Positions 19,037 through 26,077 of a DNA stretch of 28,121 nucleotides are shown here, piece after piece (position 1 is the stretch's first letter; every line of letters starts with the position of its first letter). Where the stretch lies: IMG/VR virus record IMGVR_UViG_3300027719_000041, positions 1 to 28,121 of that record. The stretch is one strand, 5' to 3'. The notes beneath the pieces are model-generated. The model saw nothing but the letters and a program-made list of their open reading frames with translations, was not told the origin of the DNA and made no database searches. Made by a program: the position numbers and the translations under genes. This DNA is from a virus.

Positions 19037-19453
19037 CTAAGAATTTAGAGCTTCTTGGATACCTAAAGCAATCTCTTGAGCGGAGTAAGGCATGAGGCCG
19101 TTGTTCTCAATTCGAGTGATGGCAGGAATGAGGAGAGGGAGCATCGTCACCATCTTGAACTGCTCACAAGTAGAGGTCAGAGAGCAGCCCTTACGGAGGT
19201 ACTCAGCATACATCGTAGTGTTGTTCTCACAAGGAGGTGCCCACCTAGAGGCAATCTCATGGCAGGTGTTGATCTTGTAGTTCTTCTCATAGTTCAGAAG
19301 AAGCTTTGCCATAGCCCTGATGCCCTTCACAGGAGTCTCATACTTCTCGAAGGGAGTGGTGTTGTTACTCACCTCCCCCTTCCAGGTGATAGATGTCTTT
19401 CGGATGTTACCAGGGTTATTGTTCCTCAAGCCGATAGGAAGCTTAGGTGCCAT
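19037..19453 (-). CDS. Peptidoglycan-degrading enzyme candidate with RNNNPGN motif
   Basis: 138 residues. The N-terminal GLRNNNPGNIR (residues 8-18) is the hallmark of a phage lysozyme-like/virion-associated murein enzyme group. The rest is a compact helical domain (PVKGIRAMAKLLLNYEKNY, then MYAEYLRKG), also typical of that group. No signal peptide or membrane segment is visible, so it would need a holin to reach the wall. Its ATG overlaps the previous stop codon as TAATG. It is the last gene before the late control region, near where T7 has early/middle lysis functions. It may be the endolysin or an entry enzyme replacing the transglycosylase missing from the gp16-like protein. Confidence 0.6.
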   Translation of the reverse strand: MAPKLPIGLRNNNPGNIRKTSITWKGEVSNNTTPFEKYETPVKGIRAMAKLLLNYEKNYKINTCHEIASRWAPPCENNTTMYAEYLRKGCSLTSTCEQFKMVTMLPLLIPAITRIENNGLMPYSAQEIALGIQEALNS

Positions 19454-19701
19454 TACTTGTCCCCTGGATACACAAGTATGCTGATGGAACCTTCACCAGA
19501 CTTGGTGATTCCCTTCCAAATCTTCAGGAACTCCTCAGGACGCCTCTGGAAGAGATTGGCATCACAGGTAGCACATTCCACAGGAGAGGCTTCTTCAGAA
19601 TACCAAGCAGGATAAGCAGGATACTCCACAGTAATGACAGCTTTCATCTTAGGGATATTAGAGTCCACAGATTCCTCCGATACATTTTTCTTCGACTTCA
19701 T
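19453..19701 (-). CDS. Hypothetical protein
   Basis: 82 residues from ATG 19701, supported by GAGG about eleven bases upstream. A GTG at 19713 is also in frame, and an ATG at 19647 would avoid the overlap with the reductase 3' end but has no ribosome binding site. Features: an aromatic stretch (EYPAYPAWYSEE) and one CxxC pair (ECATCD) mid-protein. A single CxxC could bind metal or be redox-active, which would be notable beside a ribonucleotide reductase, but the surrounding sequence is not thioredoxin- or glutaredoxin-like. Function unknown. Confidence 0.65.
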   Translation of the reverse strand: MKSKKNVSEESVDSNIPKMKAVITVEYPAYPAWYSEEASPVECATCDANLFQRRPEEFLKIWKGITKSGEGSISILVYPGDK

Positions 19702-22246
19702 CAAACACAACACCTCTTTGTTTAGCAGCTTCTTCGTAAGGGACAGGAGTCAATGGCTGTCCACCTCTGGCACCATCAGGATAACAGGTCATACCTCTGA
19801 GCATTCCACAATACTTCAAGAGAGTGTTCCCCAACTCCTGGGCAGTATACTCATTGTTATACTCACTCCCCCAAGCAGGGAGGTTCAAGGTGGAGGAGAT
19901 GGCATGGTCAACGAATTGTTGAACCTGAGCCTGGAATTCGATCCTCTTACCTGGAGTGATAGCCAAGGATCTGGATGTCTCGATGTCATCAGGATTTAGG
20001 CCATGCTCCTTAATCAACCTCTCAGCGGTGGCATCGATGACATACTCATACTTCCACCTAGTCCCTTGCACCAGATACCTACGCTTGTAGGCCACAGCGA
20101 AGAGAGGCTCGATGCCTGTGGTAGTGGAGGCCAGGATACCTATGGTGCCTGTAGGGGCAATAGCACGGTACTTGATGGGACGATTGATGTAGAGCTTGTC
20201 ACAGAGTTGATTGGCTCCAGATTCAGAATAACCCTCATAGGACATAAGCCAATTCTGGAGCTTCTCAGAGAAGGCATAGGACTCTCCATTCTTCAAGAGC
20301 CATTCATGGATGCCCATAAGACCAAGACCAAGGCGTCTGTTCTTCTCTCTAACCTGTTTAACCTTCTCATAAGGTAAGTCACCTCTCAAGGTTCCACAGA
20401 CAAGGAACTTAGAACCTAATTCACAGACTGCTTCAAACTCATCCAGGGAGTCTATAGCTCCCATATTCACGCTTCCAAGATTACAGACATCTGAGTCATT
20501 TTCAGAAGTTACTTCACAACAATTAGAAACAATCACCCCTTCAGCACAGAAGGAATGTTCTTCATATTCTACATCGCAGCAGAAGACATCTTCAATTCTT
20601 CCTTCATCTTCAACAGAGACGACCTTCACAGCCGACTTACGATACCCAAACACTTCCACCCCGTCGGTATTAAAACGAACACGGCGAGTGGGGATGAGAG
20701 TGAGGAAGTCAACGATGGAATCACGAAGGATAATCAAAGACCATGTCTTGTTCCCAGGTTTATACGAAGAACCAGAGCCAATATTGATATTACTCTGGAT
20801 GCCATAATACTCTAACCACCGCCTAACATCCTCAAGTAATTCATAGATGCTAGAGGAAAGAGTTATCCTCCTGGCCTTCTCATTAGCATAACCATCAGCA
20901 TCGAAGAGTCCTGCTATGAAAGACCTAACACAATAGGTTGAATCAACCTTCTTCTTACTCAGGGAAGCATATTTATTGTTCTTGTAGTACAGCCTCGTTC
21001 CATCGAGAGAAGTGGAGTCAGGAGTAGCTAGACAAGGGAGAACCTTCTCGATCTTGTTCTCAGCGAAGAAGCTAACATCAGCCCCTCCCCAAGAAGAATG
21101 ACCATCTCCAATGATGAACCCCTGTGTGTAACCTATAGGGTTCAAGCCTGTTCCTTCTATAGCACACAACGAAGTGACCAAGGTATCTCCAGGCTTCAAT
21201 TTAGCAGCCGGAACCTTGTCTTCAATGTATCTAGCGTTCTTCCCTCTTTTATTAGAGAGGGGTTTACGAACAAAGAACTCATGCTCAGGGTCAGCATAAA
21301 TAACCCTTCCACCTGTCATCCTAACGGTGAGCGTCTTGACGTTACTCTTGGTCTTCACGAAGGTAGTCTCTGCCCACCTTCTTCCTGTCCAGACCTTACA
21401 CTTCCCTTCAGGTAAGTCTTTAATCCTAGCATATCCATCACTACAAAGGACATGGGTTTCACCAGACAGAGGAGCGTTCCTTAGTGTCTCCTTCTCATTC
21501 TCATAAAAGTTATAAGAATGCCCCGGTTCCCCAGTCTTGCACATATTCAACACAGAGCGATACCAGAGGTCAGGAACGTATCCCTGTTTAGCTTCTTCAA
21601 TGAACTTCGTATCCCAGTTGATGGAGATGTTGGTCATATCCAACTGAGCAGGGAAGTTGAAGTCTTCAGCCTTCTTCTCCTTAATCCACTCAGGCCAATC
21701 CTTAGCTGTAAGGAAAGCCTCGATGTCATCATGCTGCCAATTGAGAGAGGCATAGATAGCAGAACGTCTTGAACCACCTTGCATGACGTTCCTGCCTATC
21801 TCATTAATCATGTACATCAGTGGCAGAGGCCCACTAGATAATCCACCAGTGCGAAGGAGACTACGCCCCATAGGACGTATAACAGAATAATCAACCCCAA
21901 TGCCTCCCCCTGACATAAGCGCAGACGTACACCGCTTAACCAAGTCAGCCCATTCTTCACGGGTATCCTCCTCAGCTTTGAGCAGGAAACAGTTGTTGTA
22001 GTAATGGAGCTTCCTTCCTGCATAGTAGAGATACCTACCACCAGGAACGAACTTCATCTCTGTGATGAACTTGACCAACTGCTTCTGTTCTTCAGGAGAC
22101 AGCAAGGGAAAGGGAAGTTCCCCTCCCCTTGTGCCACAGACATCATCTACCAAACGCCTAGCAAGTTCAGGCCAAGAGTCATTCGGACCTTGGGCATACT
22201 TGTTCCTGAAGATGTTCTCAGCGAAGGGTGTCTTGAACTTAAACAT
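19658..22246 (-). CDS. Class II (B12-dependent) ribonucleotide reductase precursor with in-frame intein
   Basis: 862 residues, of which 259-575 are an intein; the joined protein would be 545 residues, as in monomeric class II reductases of marine podoviruses. It reduces ribonucleotides to deoxyribonucleotides using adenosylcobalamin. Seen: NNCFLLK with redox Cys86; SGGGIGVDYS at 112-121; RNA before the intein and CCEV after it, giving N-A-C-C-E, where Cys576 would be the thiyl-radical cysteine and Glu578 its partner; SDVCNLGSVNM; APTGTIGILA; and a C-terminal CIGGIC (Cys855, Cys860) for re-reduction. GAGG stands five bases before ATG 22246. The single-chain form, lack of a radical-subunit gene nearby and the C-terminal Cys pair favour class II over class I. 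Function depends on splicing. Confidence 0.92.
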   Translation of the reverse strand: MFKFKTPFAENIFRNKYAQGPNDSWPELARRLVDDVCGTRGGELPFPLLSPEEQKQLVKFITEMKFVPGGRYLYYAGRKLHYYNNCFLLKAEEDTREEWADLVKRCTSALMSGGGIGVDYSVIRPMGRSLLRTGGLSSGPLPLMYMINEIGRNVMQGGSRRSAIYASLNWQHDDIEAFLTAKDWPEWIKEKKAEDFNFPAQLDMTNISINWDTKFIEEAKQGYVPDLWYRSVLNMCKTGEPGHSYNFYENEKETLRNAPLSGETHVLCSDGYARIKDLPEGKCKVWTGRRWAETTFVKTKSNVKTLTVRMTGGRVIYADPEHEFFVRKPLSNKRGKNARYIEDKVPAAKLKPGDTLVTSLCAIEGTGLNPIGYTQGFIIGDGHSSWGGADVSFFAENKIEKVLPCLATPDSTSLDGTRLYYKNNKYASLSKKKVDSTYCVRSFIAGLFDADGYANEKARRITLSSSIYELLEDVRRWLEYYGIQSNINIGSGSSYKPGNKTWSLIILRDSIVDFLTLIPTRRVRFNTDGVEVFGYRKSAVKVVSVEDEGRIEDVFCCDVEYEEHSFCAEGVIVSNCCEVTSENDSDVCNLGSVNMGAIDSLDEFEAVCELGSKFLVCGTLRGDLPYEKVKQVREKNRRLGLGLMGIHEWLLKNGESYAFSEKLQNWLMSYEGYSESGANQLCDKLYINRPIKYRAIAPTGTIGILASTTTGIEPLFAVAYKRRYLVQGTRWKYEYVIDATAERLIKEHGLNPDDIETSRSLAITPGKRIEFQAQVQQFVDHAISSTLNLPAWGSEYNNEYTAQELGNTLLKYCGMLRGMTCYPDGARGGQPLTPVPYEEAAKQRGVVFDEVEEKCIGGICGL
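20522..21472 (-). mobile_element. Intein with LAGLIDADG homing endonuclease, Pro at position 1
   Basis: 317 residues, host residues 259-575. Block A reads PLSGETHVLCSDG, with Pro where most inteins have Cys or Ser. Block B is GGRVIYADPEHEFFV (His64; Asp61 in the usual Thr place). The endonuclease motifs are GFIIGDGH (118-125) and FIAGLFDADGYA (185-196), both with their catalytic Asp. Block F is VFCCDVEYEEHSFCAEG with Cys298/Cys299. Block G is GVIVSN ending in Asn317 (Ser as penultimate) followed by Cys+1. The endonuclease looks intact, so homing could be active. A block F Cys combined with a non-nucleophilic first residue resembles class 3 inteins, but the Trp of that class is Phe66 here. Confidence 0.9.
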
Positions 22247-24750: not shown

Positions 24751-25289
24751 TCAGTTTCCTCTTTAGGTTCTTCAAAGATGAACTGGGAGTGCCTCAGAAT
24801 CCTCATAGCGTTGATGAACTGCTCCCACTCCTTCAGCCGGTGAGTCTTCCTCTGGGCAACGATGTTCCTGATGACCTTGTAGTTGGTACAGACAATCCTA
24901 CGCTGGAGAAAGGATTCAGGTAGAAGAGCTTTGAGAAGATCGAATTGCTTCTCACCAACCATCATGTTCAACATCTCCAAGACCTGAGAAGGGATACCAG
25001 GAGCCTCAAAGTCATCAGGAGTGAGATGCTTCTTCAACATCGTGTGCATAGTAGACTGAGACTGCTTGGTCATCCCAACCCTGTAGGTGTCAAACTGTTG
25101 CCACCAATACCTAGGAGCTACGATGTCCAACCAGACAACCATGCTCTCAAGGAACTTATTATGTCCCCCATCCATGTGAGCAAGACGTGTAGCAGCATTC
25201 CAAGCCTTGTGAGGAGAGACATTATAGGAGAGAGATAGCCCTACCATAGCAGGGAGATAACCGGCTTCATCCAGTAACAGGACTTCCAT
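24747..25289 (-). CDS. ThyX-like (flavin-dependent thymidylate synthase-related) protein
   Basis: 180 residues. The stretch APRYWWQQFDTYRVGMTKQS then QSTMHTM (residues 58-84) resembles the substrate- and flavin-binding region of ThyX-related phage proteins, and SFLQRRIVCTNYKVIRNIV with AQRKTHRLKEW (127-155) resembles their second conserved helix. The canonical ThyX signature RHR...S.N..S.RY is not present, so activity is uncertain. If active it would make dTMP from dUMP, fitting its place with the reductase and the NTP pyrophosphatase. AAGGAG lies five bases before ATG 25289; it overlaps the previous gene by 23 bases. Confidence 0.5.
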   Translation of the reverse strand: MEVLLLDEAGYLPAMVGLSLSYNVSPHKAWNAATRLAHMDGGHNKFLESMVVWLDIVAPRYWWQQFDTYRVGMTKQSQSTMHTMLKKHLTPDDFEAPGIPSQVLEMLNMMVGEKQFDLLKALLPESFLQRRIVCTNYKVIRNIVAQRKTHRLKEWEQFINAMRILRHSQFIFEEPKEETE

Positions 25290-25653
25290 ATGTCTCCTTG
25301 AGTTTGTTGAGGTAGAAGGTAGCCTTGTTCAAATCCTCCAGCCCACCCTTGAGCTTATGTCGAGTGACATACTTGACCACATTGCCTTCAAGGAAAGACA
25401 TCTTGTTAGCCATTATATAATCAATAGGCTGGATGCTACCTTGAGTGTAGTGAGGAGGATGCGATACCATGTCGTATTTGACAGGAAGGTCCGCATAAGT
25501 AATAGGAAGGTCATCACGATAGATAGTAGACTTGATAGCTAACAATTCAGCTTGTTCATCTTTACAGTAGGGACAGATAGCTGGAAGTTCATCTCTAAAA
25601 CGCTCATGGAGGATATGACCACATTTAGTACATTCCCAATCTCTACGGCTCAA
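25267..25653 (-). CDS. Zinc-ribbon plus DUF3310-like protein (T7 gp1.7-type domain)
   Basis: 128 residues from a TTG start at 25653, with AAGGAGG six bases upstream. Longer reading back to 25869 is open but lies inside the MazG-like gene. Residues 8-30 have two CxxC pairs (CTKC, CPYC), a zinc ribbon. Residues 64-120 (SHPPHYTQGSIQPIDYI, FLEGNVVKYVTRHKLKG, LNKATFYLNKL) are a DUF3310 domain, related to the gp1.7 nucleotide kinase family of T7. A role in nucleotide phosphorylation is thus plausible but not shown. It overlaps the MazG-like stop by 11 bases. Confidence 0.78.
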   Translation of the reverse strand: MSRRDWECTKCGHILHERFRDELPAICPYCKDEQAELLAIKSTIYRDDLPITYADLPVKYDMVSHPPHYTQGSIQPIDYIMANKMSFLEGNVVKYVTRHKLKGGLEDLNKATFYLNKLKETYGSPVTG

Positions 25654-26077
25654 TGAGTCCCTCCTTTTCAAGGATAGAAATAATCTCAGGAAGAGGAGAC
25701 GTGTAAGCATCCCCCTTGATGATTTTTCCATTGGTGTCCTTGGTGGTTCCTTTCTTTTCATTGGCAGAGATGACAGCGTCGAAACATTCATTGGCAACTT
25801 CCGCAGGGACGCCAAGGGCTTCCGTATATATGTCCCTAAACTCAGTAAGACCATGATGAAGACAGACAAGGAACAAATCTGGTTCCTTCATCTTAGCCTC
25901 AGTACCTGCTCCTACGAAAGATAAATCACAAAGCTCTTGAATCTTCTCAGCCAAAGATGGAGCTTTGAAAATCTCAGTCAACTCCTCCATCAACATCTCG
26001 AATTCAAGCTCAGGATTGAACTCAAGATTATTCCTATCCTTGTTCCACTTCTCGATGCGCTCATATGTATCCATCAT
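25643..26077 (-). CDS. MazG-like all-alpha NTP pyrophosphohydrolase
   Basis: 144 residues. The metal-binding pattern of the family is present: EELTE (Glu31, Glu32, Glu35) and ELCD (Glu48, Asp51). It is followed by helices and a C-terminal SANEKKGTTKDTNGKIIKG segment often seen in phage members. Such enzymes split NTPs or dNTPs to monophosphate and pyrophosphate, adjusting the pool or lowering (p)ppGpp signalling. Two adjacent ATGs (26077, 26074) follow GGGGAG; the second has the better spacing. It begins 9 bases after the DNA polymerase stop. Confidence 0.72.
   Translation of the reverse strand: MMDTYERIEKWNKDRNNLEFNPELEFEMLMEELTEIFKAPSLAEKIQELCDLSFVGAGTEAKMKEPDLFLVCLHHGLTEFRDIYTEALGVPAEVANECFDAVISANEKKGTTKDTNGKIIKGDAYTSPLPEIISILEKEGLIEP

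Follow-up and report, generated by a model that had tools for sequence, protein, structure and literature searches.

Inteins that begin with proline at the radical cysteine of phage class II ribonucleotide reductases

Inteins that begin with proline (Pro1 inteins) and interrupt phage class II ribonucleotide reductases at their radical cysteine constitute a previously unrecognised, conserved and mobile family. The open papers searched yielded no report of Pro1 inteins or of a new intein class of this kind. One member is found in the window, i.e., the whole stretch of 28,121 nucleotides analysed here (positions 1 to 28,121 of IMG/VR record IMGVR_UViG_3300027719_000041), which is a fragment of a T7-like podovirus. 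We consider it likely, with a probability of about two in three, that this is a functional mobile intein in the finger loop of the reductase, the splicing of which would follow a class-3-like route begun by Cys298 and continued by Cys576.

The interrupted reductase gene

On the minus strand of the window, an open reading frame of 862 aa, intein included (22246-19658), encodes the precursor of a class II ribonucleotide reductase (NrdJ-like, presumably of the B12-dependent type). Its top NCBIfam family is NrdJ_Z (TIGR02504, 7.6e-59), Pfam Ribonuc_red_lgC also matches it, and the calculated length of the spliced product is 545 aa (862-317). The precursor comprises the following parts:

19658-22246, minus strand: reductase precursor (NrdJ_Z, 7.6e-59; Ribonuc_red_lgC; kinship of the empty-site homologue L009 to T. 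maritima NrdJ, 1xje)
21473-22246, minus strand: N-extein, residues 1-258, ending in ETLRNA (51-64% identity to 10 relatives)
20522-21472, minus strand: intein of 317 aa, from Pro1 to Ser316-Asn317 (residues 259-575 of the open reading frame; aligned with 28 other Pro1 inteins)
20519-20521, minus strand: Cys576, first C-extein residue (+1) and the reductase's radical cysteine (Cys in 29/29; alignment to Cys322; N-X-C-X-E motif)
19658-20521, minus strand: C-extein of 287 aa (CCEVTSENDSDVCNLGS...; 70% identity to L009)

Asn257 and Ala258 are invariant between the N-extein and the 10 relatives. The best solved relative of L009 is T. maritima NrdJ (1xje), and Cys266 of L009, the counterpart of Cys576, falls in their alignment on Cys322, the radical cysteine of that enzyme; this alignment bears out the first-pass annotation, which had placed the insertion immediately before the catalytic cysteine. 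In ribonucleotide reductases the catalytic cysteine is surrounded by an N-X-C-X-E finger-loop motif (PMC9669993), present here as NACCE once spliced and aligning with NPCGE of 1xje, NA standing in for the NP that is usual in class II enzymes. The dual role proposed earlier for the +1 cysteine, in splicing and afterwards in catalysis, is not peculiar to this intein, as phage class I reductases have many Cys1 inteins at that site.

The window carries genes for the large terminase, tail fibre, internal virion proteins, two tail proteins, major head protein, head assembly/scaffold protein and head-tail connector, then for the reductase, an exonuclease and DNA polymerase. No NrdB was found among the scanned open reading frames of this 28-kb fragment, which fits a class II enzyme. 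Adjoining the reductase is a small lysozyme/transglycosylase-like gene (19037-19453, minus strand; phrog_873 endolysin, 4.5e-35), and at 25267-26077 (minus strand) overlapping short open reading frames match nucleotide kinase and MazG-like pyrophosphohydrolase families, additional nucleotide-metabolism genes of the phage.

Anatomy of the intein

The insertion lies directly 5' of the radical-cysteine codon, N-A being followed by PLSGETHV...VFCCDV...VSN and then by CCEV; at greater length, the precursor reads ETLRNA, PLSGETHVL...DVFCCDVEYEEHSFCAEGVIVSN and CCEVTSEN. The positions and lengths reported by the first-pass annotation (intein 20522-21472, CCT 21470-21472, Cys298/Cys299, Asp61, Phe66, Cys576, 545 aa) were recovered unchanged. 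The residues and domains relevant to splicing and homing, with counts for the 29 Pro1 inteins, are:

21470-21472, minus strand: Pro1, codon CCT; the N-scissile bond is Ala258-Pro259 (Pro in 29/29; codons CCT/CCA/CCG)
21290-21292, minus strand: Asp61 at B:7 (Asp 23, Glu 4, Ser 2; by alignments)
21281-21283, minus strand: His64 at B:10, the invariant catalytic histidine (29/29)
21275-21277, minus strand: Phe66 at B:12, where class 3 has Trp (Phe in 29/29)
20633-21172, minus strand, approximate limits: homing endonuclease insertion of LAGLIDADG type (LAGLIDADG_3; I-DmoI and PI-PfuI profile match)
20579-20581, minus strand: Cys298 at F:4, proposed initiating nucleophile and first branch point (Cys in 29/29, TGC/TGT)
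20576-20578, minus strand: Cys299 at F:5, variable (Cys 18, Ala 10, Thr 1)
20522-20527, minus strand: Ser316-Asn317 at G:6-G:7, Asn cyclisation being proposed to release the intein (Ser 28, Ala 1; Asn in 29/29)

Splicing blocks A, B, F and G are all present, as are His B:10 and a C-terminal Asn followed by Cys. Aligning the blocks with class 1 and class 3 inteins, a check named in the first-pass annotation, placed His B:10 and set Cys298 on the class 3 F:4 cysteine. The splicing and LAGLIDADG domains were found independently by Pfam and NCBIfam: Pfam Intein_splicing matches at 2.2e-7, short of the curated cut-off of the family, LAGLIDADG_3 at 4.4e-17, and the NCBIfam intein_Nterm match begins at intein residue 2. 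The endonuclease, the profile of which matches I-DmoI and PI-PfuI, keeps both acidic motifs, GDG (Asp123) and DADG (Asp193). In an alignment-based structure model (23 rows; pLDDT 88.6), the best matches are endonuclease-bearing inteins (7qsu, 7qss, 1dq3).

By sequence, precise excision restores the reductase, the flanks RNA|C(X)E matching the empty site of related reductases. A shifted boundary, with Ala258 as intein residue 1, was rejected, since the product would lose an alanine kept at every empty site. Repeats around the reductase gene amounted to short, chance-like matches.

A family of inteins with proline at residue 1

A first IMG/VR search with the C-extein as query returned about 20 relatives whose site is empty (RNA|C-X-E), whereas in two contigs this site carries a divergent intein; the complete one of these, L027, also starts with proline (34-38% identity). 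Profile searches with the inteins, and then with a subset of them, extended the family to 29 members, the window intein and 28 from other viral sequences, all inserted at one and the same reductase site. Apart from near-duplicates (L169/L170, identical; L180/L182, 96%), all pairs are 32-60% identical.

Across this diversity Pro1, His B:10, Phe B:12, Cys F:4, His F:13, the terminal Asn, Ala-1 and Cys+1 are invariant (29/29). The proline is encoded by CCT in 10 members, CCA in 10 and CCG in 9, the F:4 cysteine by TGC in 17 and TGT in 12, and G:5 is always Ile, Val or Leu. The search patterns did not include residue 1, nor was Cys F:4 selected for in several members that bear EHTF instead of EHSF, as these were reachable only via the N-terminal WTG pattern. 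The proline start, the lack of the class 3 Trp and the Asp at B:7, all noticed in the first-pass annotation, recur across the family (Pro 29/29, Phe 29/29, Asp 23/29). Of the two block F cysteines that had been put forward together as occupying the nucleophile position, Cys298 qualifies by its invariance, but Cys299 is Ala or Thr in 11/29 and is ruled out as initiator.

The same data dispose of the idea that the proline is a sequencing or assembly error at the first intein codon, which the first-pass annotation had named as a refuting condition (CCT misread for TGT or TCT at 21470-21472). A second contig, IMGVR 3300004241_000060, shows no mismatch to the window along some 10.9 kb, and each of the 28 further sequences encodes proline, with three different codons in use; the chance of such an error is negligible.

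Members without endonuclease (130-167 aa; among them L039, L040, L140 and L167) retain all splicing residues. In another member (L033, 4828-5811), the second endonuclease motif is degraded (LFDGAG versus LFDADG), and homing activity has likely been lost with the splicing residues retained. One contig scan of cellular genomes with the first two inteins gave no relatives, and tblastn of cultivated phages with three members gave weaker matches alone, the inspected same-site ones beginning with Cys1. In addition, a published set of 1701 'class 3' inteins, defined by the lack of an N-terminal Cys and the presence of Cys at F:4 (PMC7891396), could contain some Pro1 inteins.

Mobility of the Pro1 inteins

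In a tree of 108 reductases, of which 28 carry Pro1 inteins, one carries a Cys1 intein and 79 are empty, the presence of Pro1 inteins requires at least five gains or losses, likewise when starred branches alone are considered. The window gene groups with five empty-site genes with starred support, and a 19-member group consisting entirely of Pro1 carriers is partly a sampling effect, the empty genes having been gathered around the window's own kin. The intein flanks restore RNA-C(T/C/A)EV, which is conserved in about 80 empty-site reductases. Patchy spread together with intact endonuclease motifs is the pattern of a homing intein, and since a mobile intein must splice to be tolerated by its host, the Pro1 intein presumably splices.

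These observations also bear on the possibility that the loss of Cys1 abolished splicing, leaving a dead or cleaving-only intein and an inactive phage reductase. Non-conservative changes of residue 1 block class 1 splicing in all reviewed experiments, and inactive class 3 relatives such as Arth_1007 exist (PMC3196547). Nevertheless, such decay is very unlikely here: the reading frames are intact, the catalytic residues including Pro1 are invariant in 29 sequences, the intein has spread repeatedly on the reductase tree, the reductase sequence is conserved on either flank, and a decayed element would not hold its proline through synonymous codon changes. Where the first-pass annotation had balanced a variant mechanism against a non-working gene, the invariance of Pro1 and Cys298 in 29 sequences of a mobile family now makes the former appear much likelier.

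Kinship with the known intein classes

In their residues, the Pro1 inteins match none of the established classes completely. Residue 1 is not the Cys, Ser or Thr of class 1. Compared with class 2, i.e., KlbA orthologues with Ala1, Asp F:4 and Thr B:7, they have Pro1, a reductase host, Cys at F:4 and D/E/S at B:7, although Ser G:6 (28/29) and Cys+1 (29/29) agree with that class. With class 3 (the WCT triad; Mch/Msm DnaB1, MP-Be DnaB, Bvi IcmO) they share the absence of a residue-1 nucleophile, Cys F:4 and His B:10, as well as Asp B:7 in the case of Mch DnaB1. They differ from it in having Phe for Trp B:12 and Ile/Val/Leu for Thr G:5 (both 29/29), Ser for the penultimate His, a reductase host, Cys+1 (known among class 3 inteins, as of 2016, from Bvi IcmO alone) and a much weaker profile match.

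The closest relatives are class 1 inteins, with Cys1, that interrupt phage class I reductases, for example those of Vibrio phage ICP1 (NrdA), Caulobacter phage CcrRogue and Rheinheimera phage Barba (RIR1-type); they are the top profile match both for the splicing domain and for the endonuclease. The splicing-domain profile of the Pro1 family scores 163 bits against these same-site inteins, 101 bits against L143, a Microcoleus phage intein, 65 bits against class 3 and 35 bits against KlbA; the endonuclease profile scores 136 bits against the Cys1 reductase inteins and 66 bits against class 3. Like the Pro1 family, they are inserted before the catalytic cysteine of N-X-C-X-E, have a +1 Cys and a LAGLIDADG endonuclease, and carry Cys F:4 and His B:10, the F:4 cysteine being present in all same-site Cys1 inteins compared (ICP1, PH357, PG07, CcrRogue, Barba16S and others from class I phage reductases, and L104 from a class II phage reductase). 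They differ by Cys1, Thr B:7 and a mostly Thr-Gly-(Asn/Gln) C-terminus, the corresponding features of the Pro1 family being Pro1, Asp/Glu B:7 and an (I/V)-Ser-Asn end.

This kinship has to be weighed against descent of the Pro1 family from the WCT clade as a divergent class 3 branch that lost Trp and Thr later. Asp B:7 and Cys F:4 are common to both, and in the AU test neither a joint Pro1 and class 3 clade (p-AU 0.285) nor a Pro1 and Cys1-reductase clade (0.152) is rejected. However, the Cys1 reductase inteins are far closer in both domains and occupy the Pro1 insertion site, and in a tree of 45 inteins, where long branches meet and five class 3 sequences were used, the class 3 rows form a starred clade of their own (100/100) and the Pro1 family another (99/94). 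Descent from class 3 is accordingly improbable. The nearer profiles of the Cys1 reductase inteins suggest an independent loss of the N-terminal nucleophile, and we favour, without proof, such a loss of Cys1 in a reductase intein already bearing Cys F:4.

Several natural variants were met at or near this site. At the Pro1 site of L104 (1082-2035), whose close kin among class II phage reductases are otherwise empty, lies a Cys1 class 1 intein, so that two intein lineages use one site. In four same-site Cys1 phage-reductase inteins (L003, L005, L104, L149), the full class 3 triad of Trp B:12, Cys F:4 and Thr G:5 coexists with Cys1; WCT alone is therefore no class 3 marker, and these four may be similar to transitional forms linking the chemistries of classes 1 and 3. 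L143 (Microcoleus phage My-WqHQDG, 2130-5015), annotated as hypothetical protein alone, is a Cys1 intein of 137 aa whose insertion point is shifted downstream by one residue from the usual one (NPC|CLVAGT...VLVNN|CEIL). Its block F contains Cys-Cys-Asn, and one tree places it closest to the Pro1 family.

By its published features, the AceL NrdHF split intein, an MCT variant of class 3 (PMC7891396), can be likened to the Pro1 family: it has a phage-type reductase host, a non-nucleophilic residue 1 and an initiating Cys F:4, and lacks both Trp B:12 and the penultimate His. It differs in starting with Ala, in keeping Thr G:5, in having Ser at +1 and no His F:13 (29/29 in the Pro1 family), and in being split and located in the reductase beta subunit.

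Proposed splicing mechanism

We infer splicing, the order of attack and the roles of individual residues from the anatomy, conservation, mobility pattern and profile kinship described above. A proline at residue 1 makes the N-to-S shift of class 1 impossible, and the invariance of Cys298, beside a Cys299 that varies, makes the former the candidate initiator. In the splicing (HINT) domain, His64 would activate the Ala258-Pro259 bond, and the thiol of Cys298 would attack the carbonyl of Ala258, yielding a branched thioester and leaving the intein with a free proline at its N-terminus. Transfer of the N-extein onto the thiol of Cys576 would follow, Asn317 would cyclise to free the intein, and an S-to-N shift would restore the Ala-Cys bond, after which Cys576 would act as the radical cysteine of the reductase. 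The endonuclease domain would carry the intein from reductase gene to reductase gene.

Evidence for a class-3-like route, class 3 splicing being initiated by Cys F:4, comes from splicing residues that stay invariant among Pro1 inteins as divergent as 32% identity, and from the behaviour of characterised inteins. AceL NrdHF (Met B:12), which starts with Ala and is devoid of His F:13 and G:6 His, splices by the class 3 route without Trp, and its Thr G:5 mutant still splices, about tenfold more slowly (PMC7891396). Functional class 3 inteins with Asp B:7 have been reported (PMC7891396). AceL NrdHF has a twisted N-scissile bond and lost splicing when Ala1 was changed to Gly (PMC7891396); by analogy, a rigid proline at residue 1 may help to hold a strained N-scissile bond. 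Against this reading, both the Trp and the Thr of the class 3 triad are missing, grafting WCT onto a class 1 intein gave no productive splicing (PMC7664689), and the scissile bond, being made to a proline, is a tertiary amide whose leaving group is unusual; the open papers searched provided no characterised precedent for splicing at an N-scissile bond to proline. Cys F:4 is, moreover, equally invariant in the Cys1 relatives, where it presumably does not initiate, and its conservation alone is thus no proof of an initiating role.

Class 2 inteins likewise have Ser G:6 and Cys+1, and Cys576 might instead attack Ala258-Pro259 directly, with a single branched intermediate and with Cys298 merely activating in place of Asp F:4. 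KlbA class 2 inteins combine a non-nucleophilic Ala1 with Ser G:6 and Cys+1 (PMC4031507), as does the Mja KlbA sequence that we examined, and both latter residues are nearly or fully constant in the Pro1 family. KlbA inteins, from an archaeal host protein, nevertheless require Asp F:4 and Thr B:7 (PMC4031507), where the Pro1 family has Cys and Asp/Glu/Ser; their profile match is weak (35 versus 163 bits to the phage reductase inteins); and in Bvi IcmO, which has both cysteines, Cys+1 is unable to replace Cys F:4 as initiator (PMC5222942). We consider direct attack by Cys576 unlikely and prefer initiation by Cys298.

Tentatively, and with more doubt than confidence, one may go further and regard the Pro1 inteins as a fourth independent splicing type of Cys1 reductase-intein descent, in which Cys1 was replaced by an obligatory Pro, the strained Ala-Pro amide would aid activation and Cys F:4 would attack without Trp or Thr.

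Implications

A family with an invariant Pro1, akin to Cys1 inteins at the same site, would represent a second escape from the N-terminal nucleophile, and it makes such an escape testable with natural sequences, for which the endonuclease-free members of 130-167 residues are convenient bench material. An intein cutting an Xaa-Pro bond, if true, would widen the accepted chemistry of protein splicing.
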